Shown: positions 15,701 through 62,221 of the stretch, piece after piece
Numbering within the stretch: the stretch's first letter is position 1
How the letters are laid out: each line of letters starts with the position of its first letter
Assembly (NCBI RefSeq): GCF_036250065.1
Contig: NZ_CP109199.1
Location: 558,001 to 622,000, forward strand
DNA: 64,000 nucleotides
Reading direction: 5' to 3'
DNA from: Micromonospora sp. NBC_01699
GTDB lineage: Bacteria > Actinomycetota > Actinomycetes > Mycobacteriales > Micromonosporaceae
The notes under the pieces: generated by a model
Told to the model about the DNA's origin: nothing
Seen by the model: only the letters and a program-made list of their open reading frames with translations
Database searches by the model: none
Translations under genes and position numbers: made by a program

Positions 15701-16305
15701 TGCGGGTGGACCTGGTTGAGTTGTCCGACCAGCACCAACGGTTCGACTGCATCAGCCCCTGGGACGGGTTCTACGACCTGACCACCCGCAAACTGACCCT
15801 GTACCGCGACGGCGTACTGGTCGGCGAGCAGCCGGAGTCGTACGGCGAGTTCGAGATTCCGCAGGCGGCCGGCGACTACCGGCTCACCTACGACCTGGAC
15901 GCGACCCGGCTGATGAGCCTGTCGAGCCGGGTCAACACCGCCTGGACGTTCCGCTCCACCGGCCCGGCGAGCGCCGACAGCGACATCCCGGTGCCGCTGC
16001 TGTCGGTCGACTACGCGCTGCCGCTCGACGCGGCGAACAAGCCGAACGGTGGTGAGGCCAGCTTCACGGTGTTCCAGACGCACGGCGTGGCGCGGCAGAA
16101 CCTCACCTCGTTCACGCTGGAAACCTCCGTCGACGACGGCGTGACCTGGCAGCCTGTGGCCGTACGGCCGGGTGGTTCCGACACCTTCACCGCCGCGCTG
16201 CCGGCGGTGGCGGCGGGGCAGTTCGTCTCGTTGCGGATCAAGGCGACCGCCGACGGTGGCAGCGGCATCGAACAGACCATCATCCGCGCCTACCGGGGCG
16301 CCTGA
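12772..16305 (+). CDS. Large secreted S8 subtilisin-like serine protease
   Basis: This 1177-residue exported protease has a signal peptide ending around ALAQ (residue 33). A propeptide-like region precedes the peptidase S8 domain, whose triad is Asp269 (VAVLDTGADFTHP), His302 (GNGHGTHVAA) and Ser478 (GTSMAAPHVAG). The oxyanion Asn lies in VVSAGNAGP. About 600 further residues form beta-rich C-terminal domains. This layout matches large actinomycete S8 proteases of the 1000-1200 residue class. ATG 12772 is preferred over GTG 12745 because GAGAGGGA lies nine bases before it. A perfect hairpin closes the gene. It is monocistronic and sits inside the decaying accessory zone yet looks intact. Confidence 0.93.
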   Translation: MARGRHSRSNRVAVTAAVVAATLGMSGSPALAQPQPSTPATTPPGSGGPVLPADRTYTVTLLTGDVVTVSGRGSACPVVSVRPAKPSGVQHRSCGADGHVRVVPGEVAGLVGSVLDESLFDVTALILDGYDDARTTELPLIVRPGGAGARAAGTLAAEPLAASLGERRALPTIAAVAGRQPKTSGADFIRTLTNRAPAAPGARTADAGPKVWLDRRVSVAGATAPLNAAPDTDRRPDTGRLDRNLTQISAHKAWRDGVTGRGSRVAVLDTGADFTHPDLVGQVVERADFTVDGGDAVDGNGHGTHVAATIAGTGAGAPGQRRGVAPDADLVIGKVLTDDGYGSDSQIIAGMEWAAARADVVNMSLGGWEPSDGTDPLSLAVDNLTAQHGTLFVVSAGNAGPTPGQISSPGAAGTALTVGAVDGTDTLAEFSDRGPLVNTMAAKPELVAPGVDIVAARATGTSMGTPVDARYTAASGTSMAAPHVAGAAALLAQRHPGWRPDQLKAALVGAAEPLSNVDSYAVGAGRLDAVRALTGVVAGQDVVDLGIFAYPQSGTASTKLSWINNGRSPVTLNLGLTVRTRTGANAPPGAVRLSADRLTVGRGGVSTVTMRVDPTRLAAKPGLYTATVTARTPGGTFVASTPVAFYVEPRSYDLALRVTSLPDAGPGIDQWGGVRIASIDDPTRFNEFTNLSPTEPVTIRVPAGRYSVAGYQVEDNPDTGLSRMILVGDPDVVVDRDVTLVADAGQASPVRATLDGLATEAAQVGVTYRQRAADGTLVSEDFAFAWGEAAKTWGAYAIPMEKPGIGGFEAYASVSLHAPGTVPTPFVYELIRALPDGIPTDLSWRVTPAEQAQLIRIDQTFHTMDTPGAVTSHKRYGLTADEMFLIDAATNEVPATRVDYLTPGYSYVDEAFFSGAFDLFDPQTVVVTQEAMRQYPAGSRHQKTWVRQPLRPDWYDDPTLSPSECQPQPIRRTQGLLRVDLVELSDQHQRFDCISPWDGFYDLTTRKLTLYRDGVLVGEQPESYGEFEIPQAAGDYRLTYDLDATRLMSLSSRVNTAWTFRSTGPASADSDIPVPLLSVDYALPLDAANKPNGGEASFTVFQTHGVARQNLTSFTLETSVDDGVTWQPVAVRPGGSDTFTAALPAVAAGQFVSLRIKATADGGSGIEQTIIRAYRGA

Positions 16306-16315
16306 CCGACACGGT

Positions 16316-16350
16316 GGGGCCCCGGATCACAAACCGCGATCCGGGGCCCC
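16316..16350 (+). terminator. Strong hairpin after the subtilase
   Basis: A perfect 13-bp stem (16316-16328 with 16338-16350, arm GGGGCCCCGGATC) with a 9-base loop starts ten bases after the protease stop. No T-tract follows. Confidence 0.85.
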
Positions 16351-16498
16351 GCTGTCTGCGGTAGGTCATTCAGACCGCAGTCCTTGCCCGCTACACGAAG
16401 CGGGGGCAGGCTGTCTGGTGTGTCCGCATTTCGACCACGTGGGTAATCACGCGACAGCTCCCTTGCGTTTCTTTCGAATTGGAGACAACCTGATCGGT

Positions 16499-17026
16499 AT
16501 GGTCGCCACAGCCGACGTCATGGACGAGCAGACAATCCTGCCCGACGCCGCAAACGCGGGGGTTGTTTTCGACCTTCTCAAGGTCCTTCGCGATCGGGGT
16601 CAGGCGGTGCCGGAAGCGCGGGCGCGGCTGGTGAGCGCGAACGGGTCGAGTTCCAGCGAACTCCCCGACGGTCTGCATGACATTCTGGTCAAGGCACTCG
16701 AAGCCCTGGCTCAGGGCTATGCCGTGACCATCGCACCGCAGCACACAACCCTCACCACCCAGCAGGCGGCCGATTTGCTCGGCGTGTCGCGACCAACCCT
16801 GATCAAGTTGCTGGACGAAGGAAAGATCCTCTACGACCGCCCGAGCAGTCATCGCCGAGTGAAGCTTGCCGACCTGTTGGGATTCCAGCAGCGGAGACGG
16901 CAGGAGCGGCGCGAGCTACTTGATGAAATGACCTCGGACAGCATCGAGATGGGCCTTTACGATCTTGTTGTTCCAGAAGACGACGATGACGGCGACGAGG
17001 CATCTCATGAGCGAGTTTCCGATTAG
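16499..17026 (+). CDS. Excisionase-type HTH antitoxin
   Basis: This 175-residue protein has a central MerR/excisionase-like helix-turn-helix: TTQQAADLLGVSRPTLIKLL, then LDEGKI and HRRVKLADLL. This arrangement is common in antitoxins that precede a PIN-domain toxin in actinomycetes. The C-terminal segment after about residue 130 is acidic (PEDDDDGDEA) and would contact the toxin. The PIN gene follows after 25 bases. ATG 16499 is the best visible start, although its nearest GGAGA is 14 bases away, so a start a few codons earlier is possible. Confidence 0.78.
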   Translation: MVATADVMDEQTILPDAANAGVVFDLLKVLRDRGQAVPEARARLVSANGSSSSELPDGLHDILVKALEALAQGYAVTIAPQHTTLTTQQAADLLGVSRPTLIKLLDEGKILYDRPSSHRRVKLADLLGFQQRRRQERRELLDEMTSDSIEMGLYDLVVPEDDDDGDEASHERVSD

Positions 17027-17051
17027 GAGAGGCTCCGCCTAAGCTCTCCTG

Positions 17052-17528
17052 GTGCCGTTCTCCGCTCTGCTCGACGCGAACGTTCTGGTGCCGAACGTGC
17101 TCCGGGATACTCTGCTCCGAATCGCGGGGACCGGGCTGTATCGCCCGCTCTGGAGCGACGACATCCTGGCGGAGACTCGACGGACAGTCCTCCGGCTGCA
17201 CCCGAAGATCGAGCCGGCCAAGTTTGATCGCACGATCACGCACATGAACCGCTCGTTCGATGACGCGCTCGTCACCAACTACCGGTCGGTTGTGGATGGT
17301 ATGACCAACGACCCGGGGGATCGTCACGTCCTGGCCGCCGCCGTGGTGGGGCCGGGCCGGCCTGATCGTCACCCGAAACCTCAGGCACTTCCCGAAGGTG
17401 TCACTCCTGCCACCGGGCGGCGGCCCGGGATGAGGAAGATCAGTGTCGAGGACCTGCGTACTGGACTCAGTCGTTCTGGTGCCCCCGACTTCGCTGACCG
17501 AATTAAGGCTCGCCTGAGCGTCAACTGA
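17052..17528 (+). pseudogene. Frameshifted PIN-domain toxin
   Basis: The first ~99 residues match a PIN RNase of the type paired with excisionase-like antitoxins: LLDANVLVPNVLRD, ILAETRR and NDPGDRHVLAAAVV keep the acidic residues. One extra G in the run 17348-17351 then shifts the frame. The expected continuation GRAGLIVTRNLRHFPKV is present in the next frame and ends at TGA 17431. The C-terminal block ISVEDLRTGLSRSGAPDF returns in the original frame, so an additional deletion has removed the segment between. The frame stays open for 158 residues but the product is chimeric. It is probably an inactive toxin, though the catalytic acids survive. Confidence 0.78.
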
Positions 17529-17726
17529 CGGTCCTGGTCCACACGTGGTCCCGCGATAAGGCATAGCCAGCCTTTAGTAGTACGAGAGTGCGCGTCAAGG
17601 CTGGGTCGGGGCGTTCGGTCGTGATGATTGTTGTCGCTCGGTGAGGCAGCGCGAGGACGACTAGACCATTTTTGTCGTACCGGCCGGGTAGACCGTCTCG
17701 TTGTTGTCGAGATTTCAGGAGTGATC

Positions 17727-18428
17727 ATGTCAAGGCTTGTTGATCGTCTTATTGCGGCAGTCGATGACGATCGTCAAGACGCCGGGATTGCGTTCAGTGC
17801 GACGTACCAGCCGGTCGGCGGTCCGGGCGGAAAGATCATGCCGCCCACTTTCCCGATTCCCGATCATGAAACCCGGTCCGCTCAGCGCGAGGGACGGCTG
17901 CCGAGGCCGTACGTTTTCGAGCAGCGTCTGGTCGACGGGGAGCGGCGGGACACCGTCGTGGTGGACCAGGTGCCCTCGCAGGCCAACCGGGTCGAGGAAG
18001 CGCTGCTCGTGGCACGCGACGGCGGCCGGTTCGACCTGCCGATGTTCGAGCTGGTCATGAAGGAGGAAGGGGTCAGGCTCACCTCGCTGGACTTTCCCCA
18101 CCGGTACGCGGACGCGTACCTGCGGGACAGTGAGGTCGGAGGGGTCCGGTTCGACCGCAGTGACGTCGGGCGGGAGCTGCGCTCGGCGACGGCGACCGAC
18201 GTACGACCGCTCTACCGGCGGGAGCCGTACTCGTTGCTGTTCGGGGCCTGGGACTCGCACCGCAAGGGACGGTGGCCGAAGTTCGCCCGGATCTACTCGT
18301 CCGCGATGTTCGGGACCGAATGGTTGGAGGCACTCACGCCGGTCGTTCGTGACCGGCCACTATTGCGACCAGTCGGATCCCAAGTCCAGCGAGGAATACA
18401 CCCAGGGCCTCACGCCGGTCGTTCGTGA
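17727..18428 (+). pseudogene. csb1: Truncated type I-G Cas7 (Csb1/GSU0053 family) fused to CRISPR repeat
   Basis: ATG 17727 follows AGGAG by five bases. Residues 1-202 match the Csb1/Cas7 protein of type I-G (formerly I-U) systems. Family blocks are ATYQPVGGPGGKIMPPTFP, VDQVPSQANRVEEAL, TSLDFPHRYADAYLRDS and LLFGAWDSHRKGRWPKFAR. Cas7 forms the crRNA-binding backbone of Cascade. From codon 203 the frame reads straight into the first CRISPR repeat (LTPVVRDRPLLR) and the first spacer, and stops inside the second repeat. The 3' part of the gene and any leader are therefore missing. No csb2, csx17/cas8, cas3, cas4-cas1 or cas2 is present in the window. It is a relic of a deleted locus. Confidence 0.9.
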
Positions 18429-18816
18429 CCGGCCACTATTGCGACTTGCGGAACGGCACAACCCCTCCGGACAGCAGACCGACTCACGCCGGTCGTTCGC
18501 GACCGGCTACTATTGCGACCTGGTACGCGACCGCAGGCTCAATCTGGTCAGGCATCGGCTCACGCCGGTCGTTCGTGACCGGCCTCTATTGCGACGCGCA
18601 GCACGAACAATCAGTACAACTCCAGCGCCTCGACTCACGCCGGTCGTTCGCGACCGGCCTCCATTGCGACTCTTCGCGGGTGCGGTTCAGCTCGCCTTTC
18701 AGCGCTCCTCACGCCGGTCGTTCGCGACTGGCCTCCGTTGCGACGCATGGTTGCACTACTCGCTGGCAATGAACCACGACTCACGCCCGTGCGCTCCGTA
18801 CCGTTGATCTGGCGCA
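18333..18816. CRISPR. CRISPR array, six 37-bp repeats plus a decayed seventh
   Basis: Repeats (37 bp, from CTCACGCCGG to TTGCGAC) lie at 18333, 18409, 18483, 18559, 18634 and 18708. A decayed copy that keeps only its first eight bases starts at 18780. The six spacers are 39, 37, 39, 38, 37 and 35 bp long and all differ. The repeat holds a 7-bp inverted repeat (GCCGGTC / GACCGGC, 6-base loop) that would form the crRNA stem. Repeats one and two are identical; later ones gather changes, with a G-T wobble in repeat six that keeps the stem. This polarity suggests the leader end was on the csb1 side. The first repeat is fused to truncated csb1 with no leader between. Confidence 0.95.
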
Positions 18817-19159
18817 GCAGCCGGCACCGGCGGTGGAGCGGCCCGAGCCGGAGTCGGCGCTGCGACGGGTTACCCGGAGCCGCCCCGGTGGGCCGACTCC
18901 GGTCCGGCTGGACCCGAATCGGGGCGACGACCACGGTCCGGGCGAGTAACGCGGAGAGTCTGTACATCGGCGTTTGTGTGAGTACAACATCTTTGGTGTA
19001 CGTCCTTGCCGCGTTATACGCCCGCGACGGCGAATAGCCAGCCGACTGGACTGCGCGGGACACGCCACCAGCTCCGGCTACCGAGCCGCAGTCGCCGTTG
19101 CGGCAGGCTCGTCCACCAGCACCGAACGAGCCGACGATGCCGCTGTACGGCGGTGAACC
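18817..19159. other. Intergenic stretch after the CRISPR array
   Basis: The stretch of 343 bp downstream of the last decayed repeat has no convincing gene. Short open frames exist on both strands but lack ribosome binding sites and recognisable sequence. It may be the scar of the deleted CRISPR-Cas or other accessory DNA. Confidence 0.5.
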
Positions 19160-20128
19160 TCAGACGGTGACGACGAGTTTGCCGGTCGTGTGCGCTCGGG
19201 CGAAGTCGACGCACGCCTGGACGCCCTGGTCGAGGCTGTAACGGCGGCCGATCGTGGCCGTCAGCTCGCCGCCGGAGGCGAGTTCGCCGACCTCGCGCAT
19301 CCCGCCGTACGTGCCGTCCATGTCGAGCACGAACCGGAGCTGTACGTCGTCCCGACCGATCCACTCCTGCTGAGGAATCGGAAAGGTGATGGTGAGCAGG
19401 CGCCCGCCCGGCCGGACGGCGCCTGCCACACCGGTGAGCTGGTCGCTCGGCAGGGTCAGGTTGAGCGCGACGTCGACGTCGGACGGGTAGTCGGCTTCGG
19501 CGTACCCGATGGTTTTCTCGGCGCCGAGGGCTCGCAGGATGTGGGCGTCGGCGGTGGTCGCGGTGGCGATCACCCGTGCTTTCGCGGCGGCGAGCAGCGG
19601 GATAACCGCGGTGCCGACGCCGCCGGTGGCGCCGATGACCAGGACGGTTTCGCCGGGCTGCACGTTGGCGGTGGCGATCAGTGCCCGAGCGGTCAGGCCG
19701 GTGGTGGGCAGTGCCGCCGCCTGTTCGATGTCGAGGTTGCTCGGGCGGTGGGCCAGGAACGGGGTGTCGGCTTCGAAGACGGCGTACTCGGCGAGCGAGC
19801 CGGTGCTCAGTGACGGGCGGTTCGTGCCGGCCATCGCGCGCAGGGCCCGGGGTACGGCCTGGCCGAAGATCTCGTCACCCACCCGGTACGCGGTAACCCC
19901 GGCACCGACCTCGCTGACCGTGCCGGCGAAGTCGTTGCCGGGCACGTGCGGGAACTCCAGCGGCGCGAAGTCGTGGAACTCGCCGCTGGGCAGCCGGATG
20001 TCGGCCGGGTTGATCGAGGCGGCGGCGATCCGTACCTGGATCTGCCCCGGACCGGGCCGGGGGACCGGCACATCGGCGATCGTGTACTGCTCGGGAGGTC
20101 CGTAATGGGTGACGACAACTGCCTTCAT
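19160..20128 (-). CDS. Quinone-oxidoreductase-like MDR family NADP-dependent oxidoreductase
   Basis: This 322-residue medium-chain dehydrogenase/reductase of the zinc-independent quinone oxidoreductase class starts MKAVVVTHYGPPEQY. It has the GroES-like fold blocks (VPGNDFAGTVSEVGAGV, VGDEIFG) and the Rossmann motif VLVIGATGGVGTAV. The structural-zinc Cys cluster is absent. Such enzymes reduce quinones or enones. The gene is divergent from a TetR repressor gene. The shared 90-bp region carries two copies of one palindrome, so control by that TetR protein is very likely. Confidence 0.9.
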   Translation of the reverse strand: MKAVVVTHYGPPEQYTIADVPVPRPGPGQIQVRIAAASINPADIRLPSGEFHDFAPLEFPHVPGNDFAGTVSEVGAGVTAYRVGDEIFGQAVPRALRAMAGTNRPSLSTGSLAEYAVFEADTPFLAHRPSNLDIEQAAALPTTGLTARALIATANVQPGETVLVIGATGGVGTAVIPLLAAAKARVIATATTADAHILRALGAEKTIGYAEADYPSDVDVALNLTLPSDQLTGVAGAVRPGGRLLTITFPIPQQEWIGRDDVQLRFVLDMDGTYGGMREVGELASGGELTATIGRRYSLDQGVQACVDFARAHTTGKLVVTV

Positions 20129-61721: not shown

Positions 61722-62221
61722 CCGGGGCGGACGTGCTGCTGCTCGCCCTCGGCGCGGTCGCCGTCGGCTCCGGCGCGCTGGTCGTCGGCACCCGGCACCT
61801 GGTCCGGGCCGGTCTCTACCTGGTGGTCTGCCTCGGTGCGGTCGCCGGGCTCTACCTGGTGCTCACCGCCGAACTGCTGGCCTGGGTGCAGGTGCTGGTC
61901 TACGTCGGCGCGGTGGTGGTGCTGCTGCTCTTCGCGGTGATGCTCACCCGCGCCCCGATCGGCGCCTCCACCGACCTGGACCGCCCCGGCTGGCCGGCCG
62001 CCCTGATCGGCGGCGGCACCGGGGCCGGACTGACGCTGCTGCTCATCGACGCGTTTCGCTGGTCCAGGGTGGACCTGCCGACACCGGGGACCGCCGAACG
62101 GCTCGGCACGGAGATCTTCGGCCGCTGGGTGCTGCCGTTCGAGGTGCTCTCCGTACTCTTGCTGTCCGCGCTGGTCGGGGCGATCGCGATCAGCGTACGG
62201 ATTCCGGGGCGGCGCCGATGA
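61718..62221 (+). CDS. nuoJ: NADH-quinone oxidoreductase subunit J
   Basis: This 167-residue NuoJ/ND6 membrane subunit has five TM helices. The key block GLYLVLTAELLAWVQVLVYVG contains the helix with the pi-bulge and the conserved Glu. VVLLLFAVMLTR follows. GTG 61718 overlaps the stop of the repeat ORF (GTGA), and the gene's TGA overlaps the ATG of nuoK. Confidence 0.93.
   Translation: MTGADVLLLALGAVAVGSGALVVGTRHLVRAGLYLVVCLGAVAGLYLVLTAELLAWVQVLVYVGAVVVLLLFAVMLTRAPIGASTDLDRPGWPAALIGGGTGAGLTLLLIDAFRWSRVDLPTPGTAERLGTEIFGRWVLPFEVLSVLLLSALVGAIAISVRIPGRRR

Follow-up and report, generated by a model that had tools for sequence, protein, structure and literature searches.

Remains of a type I-G CRISPR-Cas locus behind a predicted PafBC-type promoter element in Micromonospora sp. 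NBC_01699

The window analyzed here is a 64,000-nucleotide stretch of the Micromonospora sp. NBC_01699 genome (contig NZ_CP109199.1, positions 558,001 to 622,000), and coordinates refer to it unless stated otherwise. It contains the first 202 codons of a csb1/cas7g gene (17727..18332, forward strand), the 3' half of which is gone. A CRISPR array of six 37-bp repeats (18333..18744, same strand) follows directly, with repeat 1 abutting codon 202 without a gap. The csb1 fragment matches PF09617 over residues 23-197 (E 2.7e-40), TIGR02570 (E 3.8e-16) and the PADLOC Cas7g profile (E 1.6e-38). Read onwards in its frame, it passes through repeat 1 and spacer 1 into repeat 2 (18333..18428, forward strand), adding 31 codons before a stop at 18426-18428; at this point the Csb1 of relatives L029 and L032 runs on as DRRAGRFDP or ERRAGRFDP, and the window has the repeat instead. 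The fragment is the sole PF09617 match in the whole genome, and two congeners (G001 and G002) have no match to this profile.

Intact Csb1 measures 377-419 amino acids in 48 of 51 related rows, counted with the locus itself excluded and with residues before the match added back (L029 and L040 share one contig, as do L019 and L041). The three exceptions are a broken gene (L062), a gene at a contig end (L058) and a partial match (L065). Here 202 of about 393 residues are kept, and codons 1-201 are unspoiled: the fragment retains 48 of the 49 columns that are invariant across 15 intact Csb1 proteins, the only departure being codon 202 at the junction. Pairwise dN/dS, for which synonymous sites are near saturation, is 0.107-0.344 between the fragment and five intact relatives and 0.078-0.261 in eight pairs of intact genes. 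A comparison of intact Csb1 with solved structures found no relative (best E 0.2). A first-pass annotation, made from the sequence alone, had called the gene a truncated, 202-residue Csb1-family Cas7 and the locus a type I-G relic, and it had allowed that residues 1-202 might fail to match a Csb1 profile. The profile matches, the length of the relatives' proteins and the absence of partner genes described below bear out relic, subtype and truncation alike.

The six repeats lie at 18333-18369, 18409-18445, 18483-18519, 18559-18595, 18634-18670 and 18708-18744, with start-to-start distances of 74-76 bp and no leader before repeat 1; the repeat tool aligned 47-nt copies, of which the 37-bp repeat is the common part. 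Between and after them are six spacers (18370-18408, 18446-18482, 18520-18558, 18596-18633, 18671-18707 and 18745-18779), all different and 35-39 nt long. The sixth (35 nt) is ended at 18779 because what we read, from the sequence and an alignment to G002, as a short stub of a seventh repeat, CTCACGCC, begins at 18780. This stub (18780..18790, forward strand) marks the right-hand junction, and beyond it lies the 3' remnant (18810..18949, forward strand) of a gene whose complete homologue occupies this site in G002. That homologue (L090 3820-5622, reverse strand) encodes 600 amino acids, with a DnaJ-like zinc-finger match at E 0.0013, below the cut-off. Repeat search and spacer extraction agree on six repeats and six distinct spacers straight after csb1, as first described. 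The original right-hand limit of 18816 is about 25 bp too far, given that the alignment to the G002 gene already starts at 18810.

Allowing up to 3 mismatches, the 37-bp repeat occurs six times in the genome, always in this array, with no match on the opposite strand and none to a reversed control pattern; there are thus no further arrays with this repeat. Its closest counterparts in relatives are those of L040 (9 mismatches) and L032 (10 mismatches), the only ones within 10 substitutions. Four repeats were folded, two of the six in the window and two from relatives: a central hairpin forms in all four and a free 12-nt 3' tail in three, with z-scores of -2.61, -1.35, -1.51 and -2.90. Both window repeats give the hairpin followed by the 12-nt tail, and in the L040 repeat the tail is partly base-paired to the 5' end. 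Type I-G processing is reported, in the accessible text of PMC9638904, to cut 4 nt past the hairpin and leave an 8-nt handle. The predicted tail of the window repeats fits such a cut, and by the geometry given there the array has the type I-G feature of a 36-37-nt repeat with a hairpin and room for an 8-nt handle.

The genome (G000) is a single contig of 8,280,328 bases (8.28 Mb) with a completeness of 100. Type I-G, formerly named I-U, is typified by csb2, which is a Cas5-Cas6 fusion. We searched for the partner genes in 33 genomes, namely the 31 with csb1 matches among 354 genomes of the family and the csb1-less congeners G001 and G002. For csb2 (TIGR02165) there is no match in G000, and the same search finds it in 29 of the 31 csb1-positive genomes, hence in 29 of all 33; it is absent from G000, G183, G001 and G002. 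The same 29 of 33 genomes have cas3g (TIGR02621) over the cut-off, so that among the csb1-positive genomes only G000 and G183 lack both; the best of nine weak TIGR02621 matches in G000 (E 4.5e-22) is a type I-C Cas3. Short cas8g (NF049934) exceeds the cut-off in 11 of the 33 genomes and is not found in G000, nor is csx17 (TIGR04113), searched in G000 without positive-control relatives. In the window, the relatives' Csb1, Csb2, Cas3g and Cas8g score by tblastn against the csb1 fragment only (all else E 0.26 or weaker), in line with the earlier statement that it holds no other cas gene.

The single cas1 match in the genome, at 7.356 Mb, falls inside a type I-C locus, for which a profile scan gives Cas1c, Cas2, Csd1, Csd2 and Cas3 together with two large arrays of a repeat unlike that of the window. 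This locus spans 7.347-7.365 Mb (L009 6.5-19.9 kb; L010 1.2-3.5 kb). There are a few base differences between the repeats of its two long arrays. Some 4 kb separate the array at L009 6.5-8.5 kb from the other, and its distance to the cas genes is greater still.

Comparison with close relatives, as the first-pass annotation had proposed, shows what an intact locus looks like. G313 (L066) and Micromonospora sp. ATA32 (L040) carry csb1, csb2, cas3g, short cas8g and an array in this order, with an extra array before csb1 in L066, and in the other genomes with an over-cut-off short Cas8g the coordinates give the identical csb1-csb2-cas3g-cas8g order. L040 and L066 resemble the window in their Csb1 (79% identical over the relic length), in the plan of the repeat, in an upstream element discussed below and in having csb1 as the first gene of the operon. 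Unlike them, the window has csb1 cut at codon 202 and has lost csb2, cas3g, cas8g and the leader. An array search around csb1 found arrays flanking the gene on both sides in several Actinomadura and neighboring loci. When the Cas1c of this genome is used as a tblastn query (E 1e-4 or better), cas1 is found beside type I-G genes in L056, L057, L060, L061, L063 and, in a second csb1 branch, L070 and L071; the same search found none in the examined flanks of loci of the relic's own clade, which hence seems to lack a neighboring adaptation module. The second branch in Micromonosporaceae (L020-L028, L030, L034-L036, L038, L070 and L071) is 29-35% identical to the relic, and L070 and L071, read at 20 kb, hold csb2, cas3g, cas1 and arrays of another repeat.

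Another type I-G remnant that keeps only the N-terminal part of csb1 is found in M. foliorum (L062, with which L072 of G183 is equated). It matches residues 1-182, much the same part as in the window, and G183 shares with the window's genome the lack of csb2 and of cas3g over the cut-off. The M. foliorum csb1 is, however, split over several frames, whereas the window frame is intact, and its short array lies upstream of csb1, unfused, rather than being joined to it. The relic in the window is a further example of a kind already known. Among characterized systems, the type I-G effector of Thioalkalivibrio sulfidiphilus, as far as the accessible text of PMC9638904 describes it, shares the Cas7 type, the repeat hairpin, the 4-nt gap and the 8-nt handle. 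It is a working effector of Csb2, Cas7, Cas8g and Cas3, whereas the window lacks a complete set, and its locus has cas4-1, whereas the relic clade showed no cas1 in the flanks examined.

Spacer 5 is the only spacer with a plausible, if imperfect, target. It matches a DivIVA-domain-like gene of G002 at 30 of 37 bases (200 simple letter shuffles: mean 21.9, maximum 26), with TTC on the 5' side of the match, and its translation, ALKGELNRTRE, compares with ALQGELDRTRD in the G002 protein. The TTC of this one imperfect target agrees with the TTN PAM given for T. sulfidiphilus in the accessible text of PMC9638904. The target gene sits in the G002 segment that occupies this same site, and its DivIVA assignment is marginal (Pfam E 2e-4, below the cut-off; TIGR03544 24.3 bits, just over the 22-bit cut-off). 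We take the match as evidence that the array may once have been working. The other five spacers reach at best 20-26 of 35-39 bases in G002, G001 and the rest of the window, and spacer 4 has a partial match of 18 of 19 nt in L077 of G002 (E 0.019). Searches of phage and plasmid sequences with the array gave no significant match (best E 0.4 in both), two weak phage matches overlap spacer 5, and a degenerate spacer-5 pattern occurs in 0 viral contigs; the DivIVA-like protein has no phage or plasmid match at E 1e-3 and none in PHROGs.

Two further kinds of spacer targeting were considered and rejected. For self-targeting to have broken csb1, it would have had to rely on 13 nt of complementarity between the middle of spacer 1 (18382-18394) and csb1 (18082-18094), which in our judgement is chance. 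For targeting of the type I-G island by the type I-C system, we used the 35 spacers between 40 type I-C repeats (found with up to 7 errors) and alignments of at least 17 nt, and found no match in window positions 16400-18800. The best matches are 18 of 18 nt at window position 61775 (E 2.8e-4), one in L047 (E 0.004) and one in L064 (E 0.017), and one spacer has a 17-nt match inside the L066 csb1 (E 0.35); given 35 queries, these are taken as chance.

At this site the sister genomes G002 and G001 carry other genes, including sigma- and anti-sigma-like ones (named by eye), and the G+C content of the island is 0.59-0.67, compared with 0.70-0.72 in its flanks. A horizontally acquired island is hence the simplest reading. 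Such an island would have brought csb1, csb2, cas3g, cas8g and an array between subtilase-like and alcohol-dehydrogenase-like genes (named by eye). In L066 the stretch from codon 202 to the array runs from position 7.9 kb or so to about position 14.2 kb, and given the intact order of csb1-csb2-cas3g-cas8g-array, one deletion of ~6 kb would explain the junction. It would have fused csb1 codon 202 to a repeat of the downstream array and removed everything from the 3' half of csb1 through csb2, cas3g and cas8g to the array leader, and the right-hand break would have cut repeat 7 and run into another gene. We found no strain that still has the full island here, so that the single deletion is one we infer. 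Since only 1 of 49 invariant columns is altered, and that at the junction, either the break happened recently or the fragment remains under constraint; the state of the locus suggests a recent loss. The remaining pieces would be the promoter and beginning of csb1, one half of a Cas7, and six repeats that now stand behind that promoter. Any transcript would include the repeats but, without Csb2, complete Cas7, Cas8g and Cas3g, interference would not be expected: the absence of Csb2 would leave no known enzyme to cut this pre-crRNA, and half a Cas7 with neither Cas8g nor Cas3g would make no effector. We are therefore highly confident in reading the locus as a type I-G CRISPR-Cas system that decayed recently, and we expect it to be an inert relic.

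The first-pass annotation had also suggested that crRNA might still be made and depend on Cas proteins encoded elsewhere, which would make the locus a minimal working system whose transcribed and processed array is served in trans, for example by the type I-C locus. The array is indeed in good condition and has come to stand behind the csb1 promoter, and the type I-C locus offers Cas1, Cas2, Cas7, Cas8 and Cas3 with its two large arrays. The genome-wide family searches nevertheless speak against provision in trans, which we reject: csb2, csx17, short cas8g and over-cut-off cas3g are missing, the only cas1 is that of type I-C and the type I-C repeat is unlike. Moreover, when Csb2, Cas7 and Cas8g were tried singly, only Csb2 cut the repeat, according to the accessible text of PMC9638904. 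A working system is thus very unlikely. We regard as similarly improbable that the 202-residue fragment has been retained for some other function, such as that of an RNA-binding or dominant-negative protein. Such a role might account for the 48 of 49 invariant residues, for the dN/dS values given above, with synonymous sites near saturation, and for the similar extent of the M. foliorum relic. Clean codons are, however, explained equally well by recent loss, and the M. foliorum fragment, being split over several frames, is not maintained.

Assemblers tend to err at repeats, and a misjoin there could have dropped ~6 kb of an intact operon. The assembly is a single contig with a completeness of 100 and would have had to leave out the dropped genes altogether, and we consider such an artefact hardly probable. 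The chance that the repeats are an ordinary dispersed element instead of a CRISPR array, which the first-pass annotation had named as a finding that would overturn it, is negligible: all six genome matches lie in this one array, and repeats of the same plan adjoin csb1 in relatives. Recent decay of a type I-G locus remains the reading that we adopt in what follows.

Upstream of csb1 the window has a predicted PafBC-type (RecA-NDp-like) promoter element (17672..17694, forward strand; TTGTCGTAC-N8-TAGACC), with TGTCG at 17673-17677 and TA at 17689-17690; its TGTC starts 54 bp ahead of the csb1 start codon. Further upstream, a helix-turn-helix gene (16172-17026) precedes a PIN-domain gene (17052-17528; PIN_3 E 1.8e-4, below the cut-off), the last part of whose frame looks shifted. 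The pair is toxin-antitoxin-like, and tblastn found no relatives of the PIN protein in the other csb1 loci examined. Rfam gave one match in 17000-19500, far below its gathering score.

The element recurs in the relatives. Within 180 bp upstream, TGTC[AG]-N11-TA is present in 24 of the 28 csb1 loci that are at least 50% identical to the relic, compared with a mean of 0.46 and a maximum of 3 loci in 200 dinucleotide shuffles and a background of 0.36% of 4497 windows. Over all 51 upstream regions, for which csb1 start codons were extrapolated from the match, this loose pattern occurs in 28; below 50% identity, where the second csb1 branch falls, it is mostly missing (4 of 23, one being L055 at 49.5%). 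Scanning spacings from 4 to 21 gave 25 of 29 loci (at least 49% identity) at N11 and at most 2 at any other spacing, and on the reverse strand at most 1 locus at any spacing. The carriers are the window, L013-L015, L017-L019, L029, L032, L041-L053, L055, L062 and L064. Among the 29 loci the element is absent in L011, L012, L054 and L065, the last of which matches residues 61-109 only, so that its upstream frame is probably wrong; it is also absent in L016 (46% identity). Clustered by upstream similarity, 19 of 23 clusters carry it, that of the window included; L019 and L041, from the same contig, fall into a single cluster. The count leaves out L031, L033, L037 and L039 (no tblastn match), L040 (same contig as L029), L066-L070, L072 and L073 (longer copies of counted loci) and L071 (a second-branch csb1).

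Mycobacterial PafBC (RecA-NDp) promoters, in the accessible text of PMC8151990, PMC6789036 and PMC8223512, resemble the csb1 element in having TGTCR and TA at the same spacing. The M. tuberculosis form is given as TGTCGG, TGTCAG or TGTCAC followed by N10-TA-N3-T (accessible text of PMC8151990), and this exact form occurs in 12 of the 28 loci (background 0.044%). In the Micromonosporaceae copies, including that of the window, the sequence is mostly TGTCGTA and the final T of the mycobacterial form is missing; the window, with TGTCGT-N10-TA-GAC-C, has this looser version. Its assignment hence rests on the position and spacing that it has in common with its relatives. The loose pattern was written after the Micromonosporaceae copies had been seen, so a fairer test comes from the exact forms and from the spacing scan.

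The genome also holds an adjacent pafB-pafC-like pair of WYL genes at 3.283-3.285 Mb; one protein matches solved PafBC complexes (9fnd_X, E 6.5e-66; 6sj9 PafBC, 9.5e-48) and the other the PafC of 7p5x (E 1.1e-83). According to the accessible portions of the sources, RecA-NDp promoters are not confined to mycobacteria but are also reported from other Actinobacteria (PMC8223512), and PafBC becomes active in response to single-stranded DNA (PMC11804915). These sequence patterns suggest that one clade of type I-G operons in actinomycetes may respond to DNA damage. On balance, we lean towards the view that the type I-G branch of Micromonosporaceae, Actinomadura and relatives, Streptosporangiaceae and Nocardiopsis belongs to the PafBC regulon, in which single-stranded DNA from damage or invaders would act as the on-switch. 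Here the deletion would have left that switch before a leaderless array, a natural transcriptional fusion of DNA damage to the array. In the accessible text of the literature searched, which lay mostly outside subscription journals and bioRxiv, we found no report of PafBC control of any cas operon; CRISPR appears in the accessible PafBC texts as CRISPRi, in connection with other WYL regulators and CRISPR-associated WYL proteins, in general remarks on defence and in structural comparison.

The locus offers a clean case of type I-G loss, in which promoter, half a gene and array are kept and a search of the genome turned up none of the partners. The damage-type promoter common to the relatives is the part that is worth specialist attention: if the assignment is true, it would link one CRISPR subtype with PafBC, the DNA-damage regulator of actinobacteria, and hint at when these systems switch on.
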